From positions 562,001 through 626,000 of the forward strand of contig NZ_AKVN02000001.1 of NCBI RefSeq assembly GCF_000271485.2: 64,000 nt of DNA, in the 5' to 3' direction. This stretch comes from Pelosinus fermentans DSM 17108 (GTDB taxonomy: Bacteria > Bacillota > Negativicutes > DSM-13327). Below, in pieces: positions 15,913 to 18,835 of this stretch. Position 1 is the first letter of the stretch. Every line of letters begins with the position of its first letter. Made by a program: the position numbers and the translations under genes. The notes under the pieces were generated by a model. The model made no database searches and had not been told where the DNA came from. It saw only the letters and a program-made list of their open reading frames with translations.

Positions 15913-15988
15913 GCCGGTATAGCTCAGTTGGTAGAGCAACTCATTCGTAATGAGTAGGTCTGCAGTTCGAATCTGCATATCGGCTCCA
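15913..15988 (+). tRNA. tRNA-Thr (anticodon CGT)
   Basis: A complete 76-base cloverleaf. The acceptor stem GCCGGTA pairs with TATCGGC, the anticodon stem ACTCA/TGAGT frames loop TTCGTAA with anticodon CGT, and the T-arm is TGCAG-TTCGAAT-CTGCA. CCA is encoded. Its 3' 48 bases (from the anticodon arm on) are repeated at 18712-18759, so this gene served as an integration site. Confidence 0.95.
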
Positions 15989-15989
15989 G
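15942..15989 (+). repeat. Attachment-site copy inside tRNA-Thr (left)
   Basis: 48 bases identical to 18712-18759, running from the anticodon arm to one base past CCA. The intact tRNA is on this side, the usual result when an element brings a replacement 3' end. Three GTGGTGC heptamers follow at 16011, 16037 and 16048, possibly integrase arm-type sites. Confidence 0.88.
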
Positions 15990-16071
15990 TGAAATTAATA
16001 GCTGTGCCGCGTGGTGCCGAAAATGAGCGGATTCTAGTGGTGCTAAAGTGGTGCAATTACCTATAAAAACG

Positions 16072-16103
16072 AAACCAGACAAAGATTATTTGTCTGGTTT
16101 TTT
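16072..16103 (+). terminator. Intrinsic terminator near the left end of the tRNA-flanked segment
   Basis: Stem AAACCAGACAAA / TTTGTCTGGTTT with loop GATTA, then a T-run. It could end the tRNA transcript or a lost gene. Confidence 0.85.
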
Positions 16104-16233
16104 GTTGTGCCTTAATCCGTGGCGATACGAGTGCCTTTTGCAGCATTTAAAAATAGCTGCAGTAAGAATTATTTTTTAAATTATAGAAACCAGGACATAC
16201 TAAATGCAAAGCTAACATCGAAGGAGGTACAAG

Positions 16234-16449
16234 ATGGCTGATCACATAGATGAATGGTCAGAGATCAATAAATTTGTTCAAAAACTATCTGAAGAGAATC
16301 GATTAAAATTATTCCAAGAACTGAAACGTTCCGGATCAGTTGAAAATCCTATTCAGTATACCGAGACACACCTAGAAGGTGGTATAGAGGAACATCGTGA
16401 TAAAGGAGAGAATTTGCTCTCAAAGAGCCTAGATGGTAGATGGACATAA
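16234..16449 (+). CDS. Small hydrophilic protein of unknown function
   Basis: 71 residues, highly charged and probably helical, without membrane segments or a recognised domain. The start at ATG 16234 is supported by AAGGAGG 7 bases upstream, and a terminator follows the stop directly, so the gene looks genuine. It sits in the tRNA-flanked segment beside spore-coat-type genes, but the sequence itself does not show a sporulation role. Confidence 0.65.
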   Translation: MADHIDEWSEINKFVQKLSEENRLKLFQELKRSGSVENPIQYTETHLEGGIEEHRDKGENLLSKSLDGRWT

Positions 16450-16475
16450 AAAACCGCTCCTTTGGGGGCGGTTTT
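16450..16475 (+). terminator. Intrinsic terminator after the 71-residue gene
   Basis: Stem AAAACCGC-CC / GG-GCGGTTTT with a TTTG loop, beginning at the stop codon. Confidence 0.85.
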
Positions 16476-16559
16476 AACTTGTAAGTATATATCACTTGAT
16501 TTCGCATTCCAAAACTTTATAATTTATGAAAACGTACGTTCGAAATGGGAGCGTTGAAA

Positions 16560-16799
16560 ATGAGTGATTATAAGGTGTTTATTGAAGTTATAGCAAAGCA
16601 TGATACATACGGCAACATCCATCCACTATCAATTAAATGGGAAGATGGCAGAGTCTTTGAAGTGGATCGTCTTATTGACGTGCGCCAAGCTGCATCACTA
16701 ATAGGTGGCGATGTAGGCATACGCTATACTTGTAAGATCATGGGTAAGCAGGTTTATTTATTTGATGATATGGGCAAGTGGTTCATGGAAAGGAAATAA
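16560..16799 (+). CDS. Conserved small hypothetical protein
   Basis: 79 residues. The pattern PLSIKWEDGRVFEVDRLIDVRQAAS, given here in parts as PLSIKWEDGR, EVDRLIDVR and RYTCKIMGK, followed by YLF and KWF, is that of a small family seen in many Firmicutes whose role is not known. Length and motif order are normal for it. ATG 16560 follows GGGAGCG; the ATG at 16545 overlaps that signal and is less likely. It lies inside the tRNA-flanked segment, facing the convergent catalase-like remnant. Confidence 0.75.
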   Translation: MSDYKVFIEVIAKHDTYGNIHPLSIKWEDGRVFEVDRLIDVRQAASLIGGDVGIRYTCKIMGKQVYLFDDMGKWFMERK

Positions 16800-16905
16800 G
16801 AAAAACTATTGAGGAAGTTGAGTAAAACGCAATAAAGTTGGTTCTTTAAGAAAAGTATTTGAAAGTAGCCAAGATGGCAGTTCATCTTGGCTACACTGTT
16901 GCAAA

Positions 16906-17447
16906 TTATTGAATAAGAGGATTGGGAGATTTTGGAGGATTGGCATTAGGATCTGGATTCTGAAAAGCTGGTGGCTGAGGGTTCTTAATATCAAAATACT
17001 TTCCAGGGGTAGAGAGATCAAAATAGAGACGTGCATTTTCATCCACACCCCAATCTTTAGTGGAACCGGTTCCCTGTATTTGATTAAATGCTTGTCGGAA
17101 TAAGGTGTTATGAGCTTCTTCTCGATTAAGTAGAAAGTCAATGGTATTTTTGACATGTTGATCTTCAATTTGGCGATAAAGATATTCATAAACAACTTTA
17201 GCTCGCTGCTCTGCTGCAATATTTGATAACAGATCTGCTGCCAAATCTCCTGTGACATTTACATAGGCTGCAGTCCAAAGGTAACCTGAGGCATTTGCCA
17301 TTAAGGGATTTAGTCCAGTTAGAACGTGACTTTGAATGTGCCCTGCTTGTACGCCTTCTGTATCCAAATCATGACCGTTCAATAATAAGTGGGATTCGCT
17401 TTTTCCACCCGAACTTCTTGTAAAAGTTGCTTTTCATGTTTAAACAT
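16906..17447 (-). pseudogene. Manganese catalase / CotJC-like gene with internal deletion
   Basis: A proper start (ATG 17445-17447 behind AAGGAG) encodes MFKHEKQLLQEVRVEKANP, the normal N-terminus of the CotJC-type manganese catalase, then stops after 22 codons. In another frame NGHDLDTEGVQAG and the rest of the family follow directly (TGLNPLMANASG, AYVNVTGDLAADLLSNIAAEQ, FLLNREEAHN) to a normal C-terminus. About 50 residues including the first dimanganese-binding helices are missing, with a frame change. CotJC proteins occur in spore coats. The downstream 158-codon frame is open but lacks the first metal ligands, so catalase activity is not expected. Confidence 0.88.
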
Positions 17448-17644
17448 TGATGCATCTCCTTATAGTTTTATTGTTTGTCATTGAATAACGGTAGTATGAC
17501 TATTAATACCTTCAATAATACGGTACTTTGCTGTTAAATTAAGAAAATAATAAGAAAAAGTAAAAATAGATATTGCAATCCATCAATAATATGAGCATTG
17601 TTTAAAACATTAAAAATAGGAATAACATTACAATTTGAACAAAA

Positions 17645-17678
17645 TAAAATAAACCGGGATGCTTCCCGGTTTTCTTAT
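17645..17678 (-). terminator. Intrinsic terminator after the CotF-like gene
   Basis: Stem AACCGGGA / TCCCGGTT. Read on the minus strand it is followed by T-rich sequence (TTTATTTTATTTT), 24 bases beyond the stop of the CotF-like gene. The rest of 17448-17701 is AT-rich with no ORF. Confidence 0.75.
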
Positions 17679-17701
17679 GGGCAAATCAAAATCGTAAGAT
17701 T

Positions 17702-18004
17702 TTATTGGGAGGCAGAACTTTGTTGAGCCTGACTGATAACGGATTGAAGCTGTTGCGTTGGTTCGTCATAAGGATTAGCCCAGCCTTTTTGTATCATTAA
17801 GCCTAAGAGAGCTTCATGCCCCATCACTGCTTGAGATGAATACTCCGCAAATAATCTTCGCACTTCTGGAGTTGTTGCAGTTAAAGTAGCAGAAAAATAT
17901 GCCTGTGCTGCAGCAGCTGCACCTGAGGCTGAAGCATAGGCAAGAGTTTGATCTGCGGAACTATCTGCAGTATTTGAAAACATGCTATTAATAATAGATG
18001 ACAT
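17702..18004 (-). CDS. Spore coat protein, CotF-like
   Basis: A 100-residue helical protein rich in Ala and Ser. The C-terminal half (HEALLGLMIQKGWANPY, then a Gln-rich tail) matches the small ferritin-like CotF/YhcQ coat family of Firmicutes, where a conserved His-Glu and a QKGW-type motif are typical. ATG 18004 follows AAGGAGG. It is 15 bases downstream of the preceding small gene, so the two form an operon, possibly continuing to the catalase-like remnant. The coat function is by family resemblance. Confidence 0.75.
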   Translation of the reverse strand: MSSIINSMFSNTADSSADQTLAYASASGAAAAAQAYFSATLTATTPEVRRLFAEYSSQAVMGHEALLGLMIQKGWANPYDEPTQQLQSVISQAQQSSASQ

Positions 18005-18019
18005 AGTCAGAAATCCTCC

Positions 18020-18250
18020 TTACTGCATCTGCGGCTGATTTGCCGTGGATGAAGATAATATATTTTCCGAAACAAATTTTTGTAATCCTACAATTCTACT
18101 TTCAGTTGTTTGAATTCCAGTTTGCGCTAAAGCTTTCAGCTGTTCATCGGATATAGCCATTATGCTGGTTTTTGCTATAGCCAATGAATTGTTTTCCATC
18201 TCCAGAAGCTTTGTTAGGGCTAAAACTTCTACATCACTTACTTGTCTCAA
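18020..18250 (-). CDS. Small coat-associated protein (unknown)
   Basis: 76 residues when started at TTG 18248-18250, which has AGGAGG 6-7 bases upstream; the longer frame lacks any such signal. The product is mostly helical, without cysteines or membrane segments, ending in a Ser/Gln-rich tail like its neighbour. It immediately precedes the CotF-like gene in the same orientation and has the size and helix pattern of small CotF-associated proteins, but I recognise no firm signature. Confidence 0.6.
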   Translation of the reverse strand: MRQVSDVEVLALTKLLEMENNSLAIAKTSIMAISDEQLKALAQTGIQTTESRIVGLQKFVSENILSSSTANQPQMQ

Positions 18251-18711
18251 TTGAATTCCTCCTAAATTTATATCCAAGATAGTGATAAAATTGCTTTCCA
18301 ACTTTATCACTATCTTCTAATAGTATGTTTAGGGGAGGGGAAAAACATGATTGGTAATTAAATGTAAATATGAGAAATAGAGTCATAAGGAAGGATATTA
18401 CATTGAACAGGATGATTTGGTTTATACTTAGTAAATAGTTGAAATGCAGATGAAGTTATCCACAGTAAAAATCACCGTCTGCCCAAATGGTGAACGGTGA
18501 TTTTTTATTTAAGGTATGCTGCATTTCATAGATGTTCTTAAATTGCAGGATTTTGTAACTTTTTATCAAATAACTCTTCAATTTTTTGGTGTGCAATTGG
18601 TGTGCAACCTGATGCATTTTTATTGATTTATTTTAATTTTTATGAACTTTTTAGAAATGATAAATCCTTATATGATGCGTGGTTACTGGATTTAGAGGAA
18701 ATCTAATATCA
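18251..18711. other. Non-coding right part of the tRNA-flanked segment
   Basis: No convincing gene. It contains a hairpin with an 11-12-bp stem around ATCACCGT / ACGGTGAT and a T-run (18467-18506). It also holds two exact tandem copies of TTGGTGTGCAA (18586-18596 and 18597-18607) about 105 bases before the right attachment copy. The tandem units look like arm-type integrase sites. Confidence 0.55.
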
Positions 18712-18759
18712 CATTCGTAATGAGTAGGTCTGCAGTTCGAATCTGCATATCGGCTCCAG
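18712..18759 (+). repeat. Attachment-site copy, partial tRNA-Thr (right)
   Basis: Exact 48-base repeat of 15942-15989, comprising the anticodon loop to CCA of tRNA-Thr. It lacks the 5' half, so it is not a tRNA gene but the displaced original 3' end left by integration. Confidence 0.88.
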
Positions 18760-18835
18760 GGGAAATTAGTGGTTCCCAGAGATGGGAGCCTTCTTATTAT
18801 GTCAAATTAGTGACAATTGGGTGACACTTGATTTT

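Follow-up and report, generated by a model that had tools for sequence, protein, structure and literature searches.

The window, the whole 64-kb stretch of DNA analysed here, comes from G000, a genome of 5.03 Mb in two contigs. Pelosinus is a spore-former of the Negativicutes, and G000 encodes SpoIVA. The window holds a single tRNA, a tRNA-Thr(CGT) identified by ARAGORN, and the last 47 nt of this gene plus one further base recur downstream as an exact direct repeat (48/48), with a start-to-start spacing of 2770 bp. The two copies, attL and attR, delimit a 2.77-kb segment with two small ORFs on the forward strand (71 and 84 aa) and three genes on the reverse strand. The features, in window coordinates, are as follows.

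15913-15988, forward: tRNA-Thr(CGT), the attB gene, intact, with its 3' part forming attL (ARAGORN)
15942-15989, forward: attL core, 48 bp, identical to attR (repeat search)
15990-16103, forward: left arm of the element, three GTGGTGC repeats (starts at 16011, 16037 and 16048), then an intrinsic terminator
16108-16161, reverse: integrase debris, exact pieces of 14 and 37 nt from a G001-type tyrosine integrase gene
16234-16449, forward: 71-aa ORF, no Pfam match
16545-16799, forward: 84-aa ORF of a prophage-type family, no Pfam match
16906-17450, reverse: Mn-catalase pseudogene with its ATG at about 17450; about 21 codons in, a deletion of 169 nt shifts the frame
17702-18004, reverse: Coat_F-domain protein, 100 aa (Pfam PF07875, E 1.3e-11)
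18020-18253, reverse: partner gene of about 76-77 aa, weakly DUF892-like, in an operon with Coat_F; TTG start near 18250
18317-18326, reverse: putative -10-like motif of the CATACTAT type that precedes the coat pair and is conserved in G002
18589-18607, forward: putative right-arm repeats near attR, two copies of GTGTGCAA
18712-18759, forward: attR, 48 bp (repeat search)
18766-18801, forward: displaced tRNA terminator hairpin, GGTTCCC-AGAGAT-GGGAGCC, read directly from the sequence

The 48-nt pair is the only direct repeat of at least 20 nt between 12 and 23 kb of the window, and the next-best match to the 48-mer in the 64 kb reaches 27/48; an exact match of this length is far beyond chance. 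The segment begins at 15942, within the tRNA, as predicted for an attL. An earlier note on this DNA had described an exact repeat of the tRNA 3' end bounding 2.77 kb, with a CotF-like gene, a coat-associated gene and two small proteins inside, and we recover all of these (the repeat at every position, the genes as ORFs and as the Coat_F match). ORF, Pfam and PHROG searches of 15990-18711 returned no structural, replication or lysis genes, a content that falls short of a prophage proper. The same note had suggested comparing the composition of the segment with that of its flanks. At 36.1% GC against 39.9% for the window, the segment is AT-richer, but its rank among windows of equal size is the 8.6th percentile, which is not exceptional, and we therefore dropped base composition as a sign of foreign origin.

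The two small ORFs differ in what they say about mobility. The 71-aa ORF occurs throughout the genus, often outside islands and, in G004, near ribosomal-protein genes, and is thus uninformative. Members of the 84-aa family lie in prophage regions of G000 beside holin, amidase and Ku genes, next to a UmuC/DinB-type polymerase gene in G001, and also in gut phages. Ku-domain genes, of the non-homologous end joining type, are found in several Pelosinus prophages or islands (L130 7157-8244, L122 3887-5075, L031 4372-5193), repeatedly beside the 84-aa family. The second contig of G000 (L131, G000:C2, 18,040 bp) is itself phage-like, with tail, holin, amidase, Ku, integrase and repressor-type genes. 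A stretch of 9.2 kb is 99.9% identical between this contig and a prophage region of the chromosome (L130, G000:C1 1,918,000-1,932,000); the contig could therefore represent a second prophage, an excised form or a duplicate produced in assembly. DNA matching the stretch of L131 that holds the 84-aa gene is also present in L133, the IMG/VR contig described below.

Element ends and integrase debris

The DNA directly after the tRNA resembles the end of a known type of element. Positions 15990-16103 are about 90% identical to the DNA that lies in G001 (L039) between the tRNA and the stop codon of an intact integrase gene; the match includes the intrinsic terminator (AAACCAGACAAA..TTTGTCTGGTTTTTT), and the three GTGGTGC repeats are spaced identically in both. 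Related left arms follow the tRNA in G003, G006 and G007, and the arm in G007 continues into the last codons of the same type of integrase before its contig ends.

Beyond the arm, where G001 has its integrase gene, the window has two scraps of that gene. The 14-nt piece (16108-16121) and the 37-nt piece (16125-16161) are exact, derive from separate parts of the G001 gene, keep their original order and encode HGLRH and NAAKGTRI in reverse frames. Shared 13-mers of the G001 integrase gene cluster at these scraps and are elsewhere in the window only scattered singles; besides the exact scraps, a tblastn search of the segment with whole integrases found nothing above noise. An integrase gene thus once stood at the canonical site by attL, and about 1.1 kb of it has since been deleted. 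What adjoins attL today is this relic and no intact integrase gene, and we therefore class the feature as a remnant rather than a working element. The earlier note had reported that the segment has no integrase. This is correct for an integrase ORF, but the surviving 14 and 37 nt indicate a gene that was destroyed rather than one that was never there.

At the other end, GTGTGCAA occurs twice, about 110 bp ahead of attR. The counterpart in G001 is a set of GTGGTGCAA pairs, also before attR, and the comparison is suggestive of a probable right arm of the element. Just past attR is a hairpin that we read as the tRNA's own terminator, which would have been pushed aside by the insertion. An AGAGAT loop with other, still paired stem bases directly follows the tRNA in G004 and G005. 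The tRNA and its AGAGAT-loop terminator are uninterrupted in G004, but the flanking genes there differ from those of the window; the tRNA-terminator junction of G004 and G005 comes closest to an empty site among the genomes examined.

The same attachment site in other Pelosinus genomes

We searched 60 genomes with the tRNA by BLAST and compared the loci of seven sister species, which with G000 make eight Pelosinus genomes. The earlier note had suggested looking for larger islands with the same boundary, and two turned up. In G005, the identical 48 bp occurs twice, 15.65 kb apart (L033 1589/17240), and encloses an island of about 15.7 kb. A 398-aa integrase gene of this island adjoins the tRNA, and genes for a terminase small subunit, a YobI-like ATPase and an HNH/EVE protein are also present. 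A 39-bp att core was found in one IMG/VR contig, L133, and the full 48 bp lies there at about 317-364, where it marks the right edge of a prophage end; the genes at this end include tail-type Laminin_G, Amidase_3 and Abi_2.

G001 retains its intact integrase beside tRNA-Thr(CGT). The T-arm of its tRNA reads CGTCCGTTCGAATCGGAT, and a displaced copy on another contig reads CTGCAGTTCGAATCTGCAT, as in other species; such a swap is as expected if the inserted element carried its own tRNA 3' end. The contigs that carry the two ends of the G001 element (L039 6005-9536; L031) lead into one and the same repeat, and the element is therefore probably about 8-9 kb long, with its interior unassembled. G006 has an older scar of 0.44 kb whose att matches at 34/48 positions. 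A decay series is therefore visible at tRNA-Thr(CGT), from 15.7 kb in G005 through 2.8 kb in the window to 0.44 kb in G006.

Two further observations concern the traffic at this tRNA. Two contigs of G005 (L033 1-17431; L042) both end in the 48-bp att and the same flank, one carrying a satellite-like island and the other a prophage tail end, which suggests elements stacked at one tRNA. In G003 (L037 2721-12097), an apparently complete chemotaxis operon lies between this tRNA-Thr and the amidase gene that other species have downstream.

The catalase pseudogene and the spore-coat-type pair

One of the three reverse genes is broken. A fragment at 16906-17382 matches Mn_catalase (PF05067; E 1.6e-22) over the C-terminal 158 aa and is 99% identical in amino acids to an intact 236-aa counterpart at about 1.03 Mb of G000:C1, which adjoins an apparent large catalase gene and has relatives in G003 and G004. 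Relative to this copy the island gene has lost 169 nt, and its frame is not intact. The high identity might point to a simple recent duplication, a reading we rejected since the differences form a mosaic: the stretch of about 62 nt ahead of the deletion contains 10, the 329 nt that follow it contain 2, and the final 148 nt contain 9. The likeliest account is that an older, diverged copy was partly overwritten by the chromosomal gene through gene conversion, with the deletion placed at one edge of the overwritten tract. The breakpoint does coincide with the edge of the near-identical tract (16906-17450 against L061 9824-10534), as would be expected for conversion with one illegitimate end. The earlier note had called this gene a broken CotJC-like catalase; broken it is, through the deletion and a frameshift, but it belongs to another Mn-catalase family. 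It matches the PF05067 domain, which includes CotJC, but not the CotJC branch: its best match is the 236-aa catalase, and it is only about 38% identical to a protein elsewhere in G000 that resembles CotJC at its N-terminus. A plasmid search returned generic Mn-catalase matches only.

The other two reverse genes are better preserved. The Coat_F match scores 45 bits against a curated cut-off of 25.7, and the partner gene upstream has a DUF892/DUF2383 match that is weak (E 0.001) and below cut-off. A 96-aa reading of the partner from 18310 is mechanical and was set aside for the TTG start. Compared with G002, dN/dS is 0.14 for Coat_F and 0.09 for the partner, so both genes have been under purifying selection and are apparently working. 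Upstream of the pair, GCATACTAT/ACATACTAT is conserved in both Pelosinus species that carry it; this putative promoter is compatible with a mother-cell sigma factor, a possible reading of the motif.

Across the class, 8 of 300 genomes sampled, in five genera, have a related, intact Coat_F gene, and the partner lies directly upstream of it in every locus examined. Seven of the eight carriers have spoIVA (one of them partial), and the remaining one is a MAG with a Spore_permease gene close to the pair; nine of ten chosen carrier-free genomes outside Pelosinus are without spoIVA. The pair is thus confined to spore-formers in this sample, and we suppose that it acts in the spore coat. The island protein shares with the Coat_F family (PF07875) an above-cut-off match and a two-gene operon with a DUF892-like partner, but scores about 45 bits where most other Coat_F proteins of the genus score about 60-85. 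It represents a divergent subfamily of patchy distribution that is found within the genus only beside tRNA-Thr(CGT).

Within Pelosinus, the pair is carried by two of the eight genomes, G000 and G002, both times beside this tRNA, as a block of about 0.73 kb that is 81% identical between the two. This shared position favours an association with the hotspot. In G002 the pair lies 2.2 kb past the tRNA, and neither a second att nor recognisable integrase debris was found at that locus; the mobility of the pair is accordingly something we infer, and it may have come with the element or been captured by it. In other genera most loci of the pair have neither a tRNA nor an integrase alongside, and a tRNA-Leu repeat looked for beside it in G037 was not found. 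Among annotated phages and IMG/VR contigs, no record carried the coat proteins. PHROG matches of three coat-type genes were not accepted as proof of phage carriage, as none had a convincing full phage or IMG/VR relative.

Origin of the segment

Taken with the tRNA 3'-end repeat at both ends and the att shared with the larger G005 and L133 elements, the arm and the scraps make it very probable that the segment is what remains of a collapsed tyrosine-integrase element, of prophage or phage-satellite type, at tRNA-Thr(CGT). The att pair, the arm homology, the integrase scraps and the larger elements at the same att are all direct observations. A tyrosine integrase of the G001 kind would have recombined an attP, which contained the last 48 bp of tRNA-Thr(CGT), with the chromosomal tRNA. 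Insertion would have rebuilt the tRNA and displaced its old 3' end and terminator to attR. Later deletions would have taken away the bulk of the element and left only about 51 nt of the integrase gene, and loss of the integrase would have locked the rest in place. The presumed survivors are the left arm, the probable right arm, the integrase scraps, the 84-aa prophage-type gene, the coat operon and the decayed Mn-catalase copy, and the two-gene spore-coat-type operon would have been retained by selection. The earlier note's central proposal, a mobile-element scar that had lost its recombination machinery, is upheld by the left arm, the scraps, the att of the larger elements and the L133 contig end.

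The segment resembles prophages and satellite islands that integrate at tRNA 3' ends with tyrosine integrases in its tRNA identity block, the place of the integrase by attL, the arm repeats and the displaced 3' end at attR, and its att is common to a phage contig (L133) and a terminase-bearing island (G005). It differs from them in being only 2.77 kb long and in having no functional integrase, capsid, tail, replication or lysis genes.

A different history, which we consider unlikely, involves two successive elements, one leaving the left arm and integrase debris and the other attR, with the coat pair an original neighbour of the tRNA that was trapped when the inner att was lost. The coat pair of G002, beside the tRNA with no second att, fits such a history, as do the slight difference between the window's GTGTGCAA and the G001-type GTGGTGCAA and the stacking suggested by the two G005 contigs; but an extra att loss is required, and the pair is missing from six of the eight Pelosinus genomes, several of which have a different neighbour at the tRNA. 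Far less probable is an old tandem duplication, in which the second 48 bp would be all that is left of a second tRNA copy and the enclosed genes would be ordinary chromosome. That the repeat is part of the tRNA and on the same strand agrees with this, but the repeat unit starts in the anticodon region exactly as do the attR copies in G005 and L133, and the scraps and element arm lie beside attL. The earlier note had held that the same 2.77 kb in all relatives would point to such a duplication, and the arrangement is absent from all seven other Pelosinus genomes. Mobilisation in trans of a small satellite or cargo island that at no time encoded an integrase would account for the missing integrase ORF but is scarcely credible given integrase scraps at the canonical position beside attL.

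Returning to the remnant of a single integrase element, we regard it as a genomic feature of an ordinary kind whose cargo is moderately unusual. Literature searches for Pelosinus prophages, or for coat genes on tRNA islands, found nothing. A bolder proposal, which we hold to be rather doubtful, is that temperate phages or satellites in Pelosinus carry spore-coat operons to tRNA-Thr(CGT) as lysogenic-conversion cargo, that the coat thereby varies between strains, and that selection in spores lets the coat genes persist after the element has gone.

Elements at successive stages of decay show that tRNA-Thr(CGT) has served repeatedly as an attachment site in Pelosinus. The data also show a spore-coat-type operon, under purifying selection, kept inside a dead mobile element, and so integration hotspots may be the source of some of the variation in spore-surface proteins.
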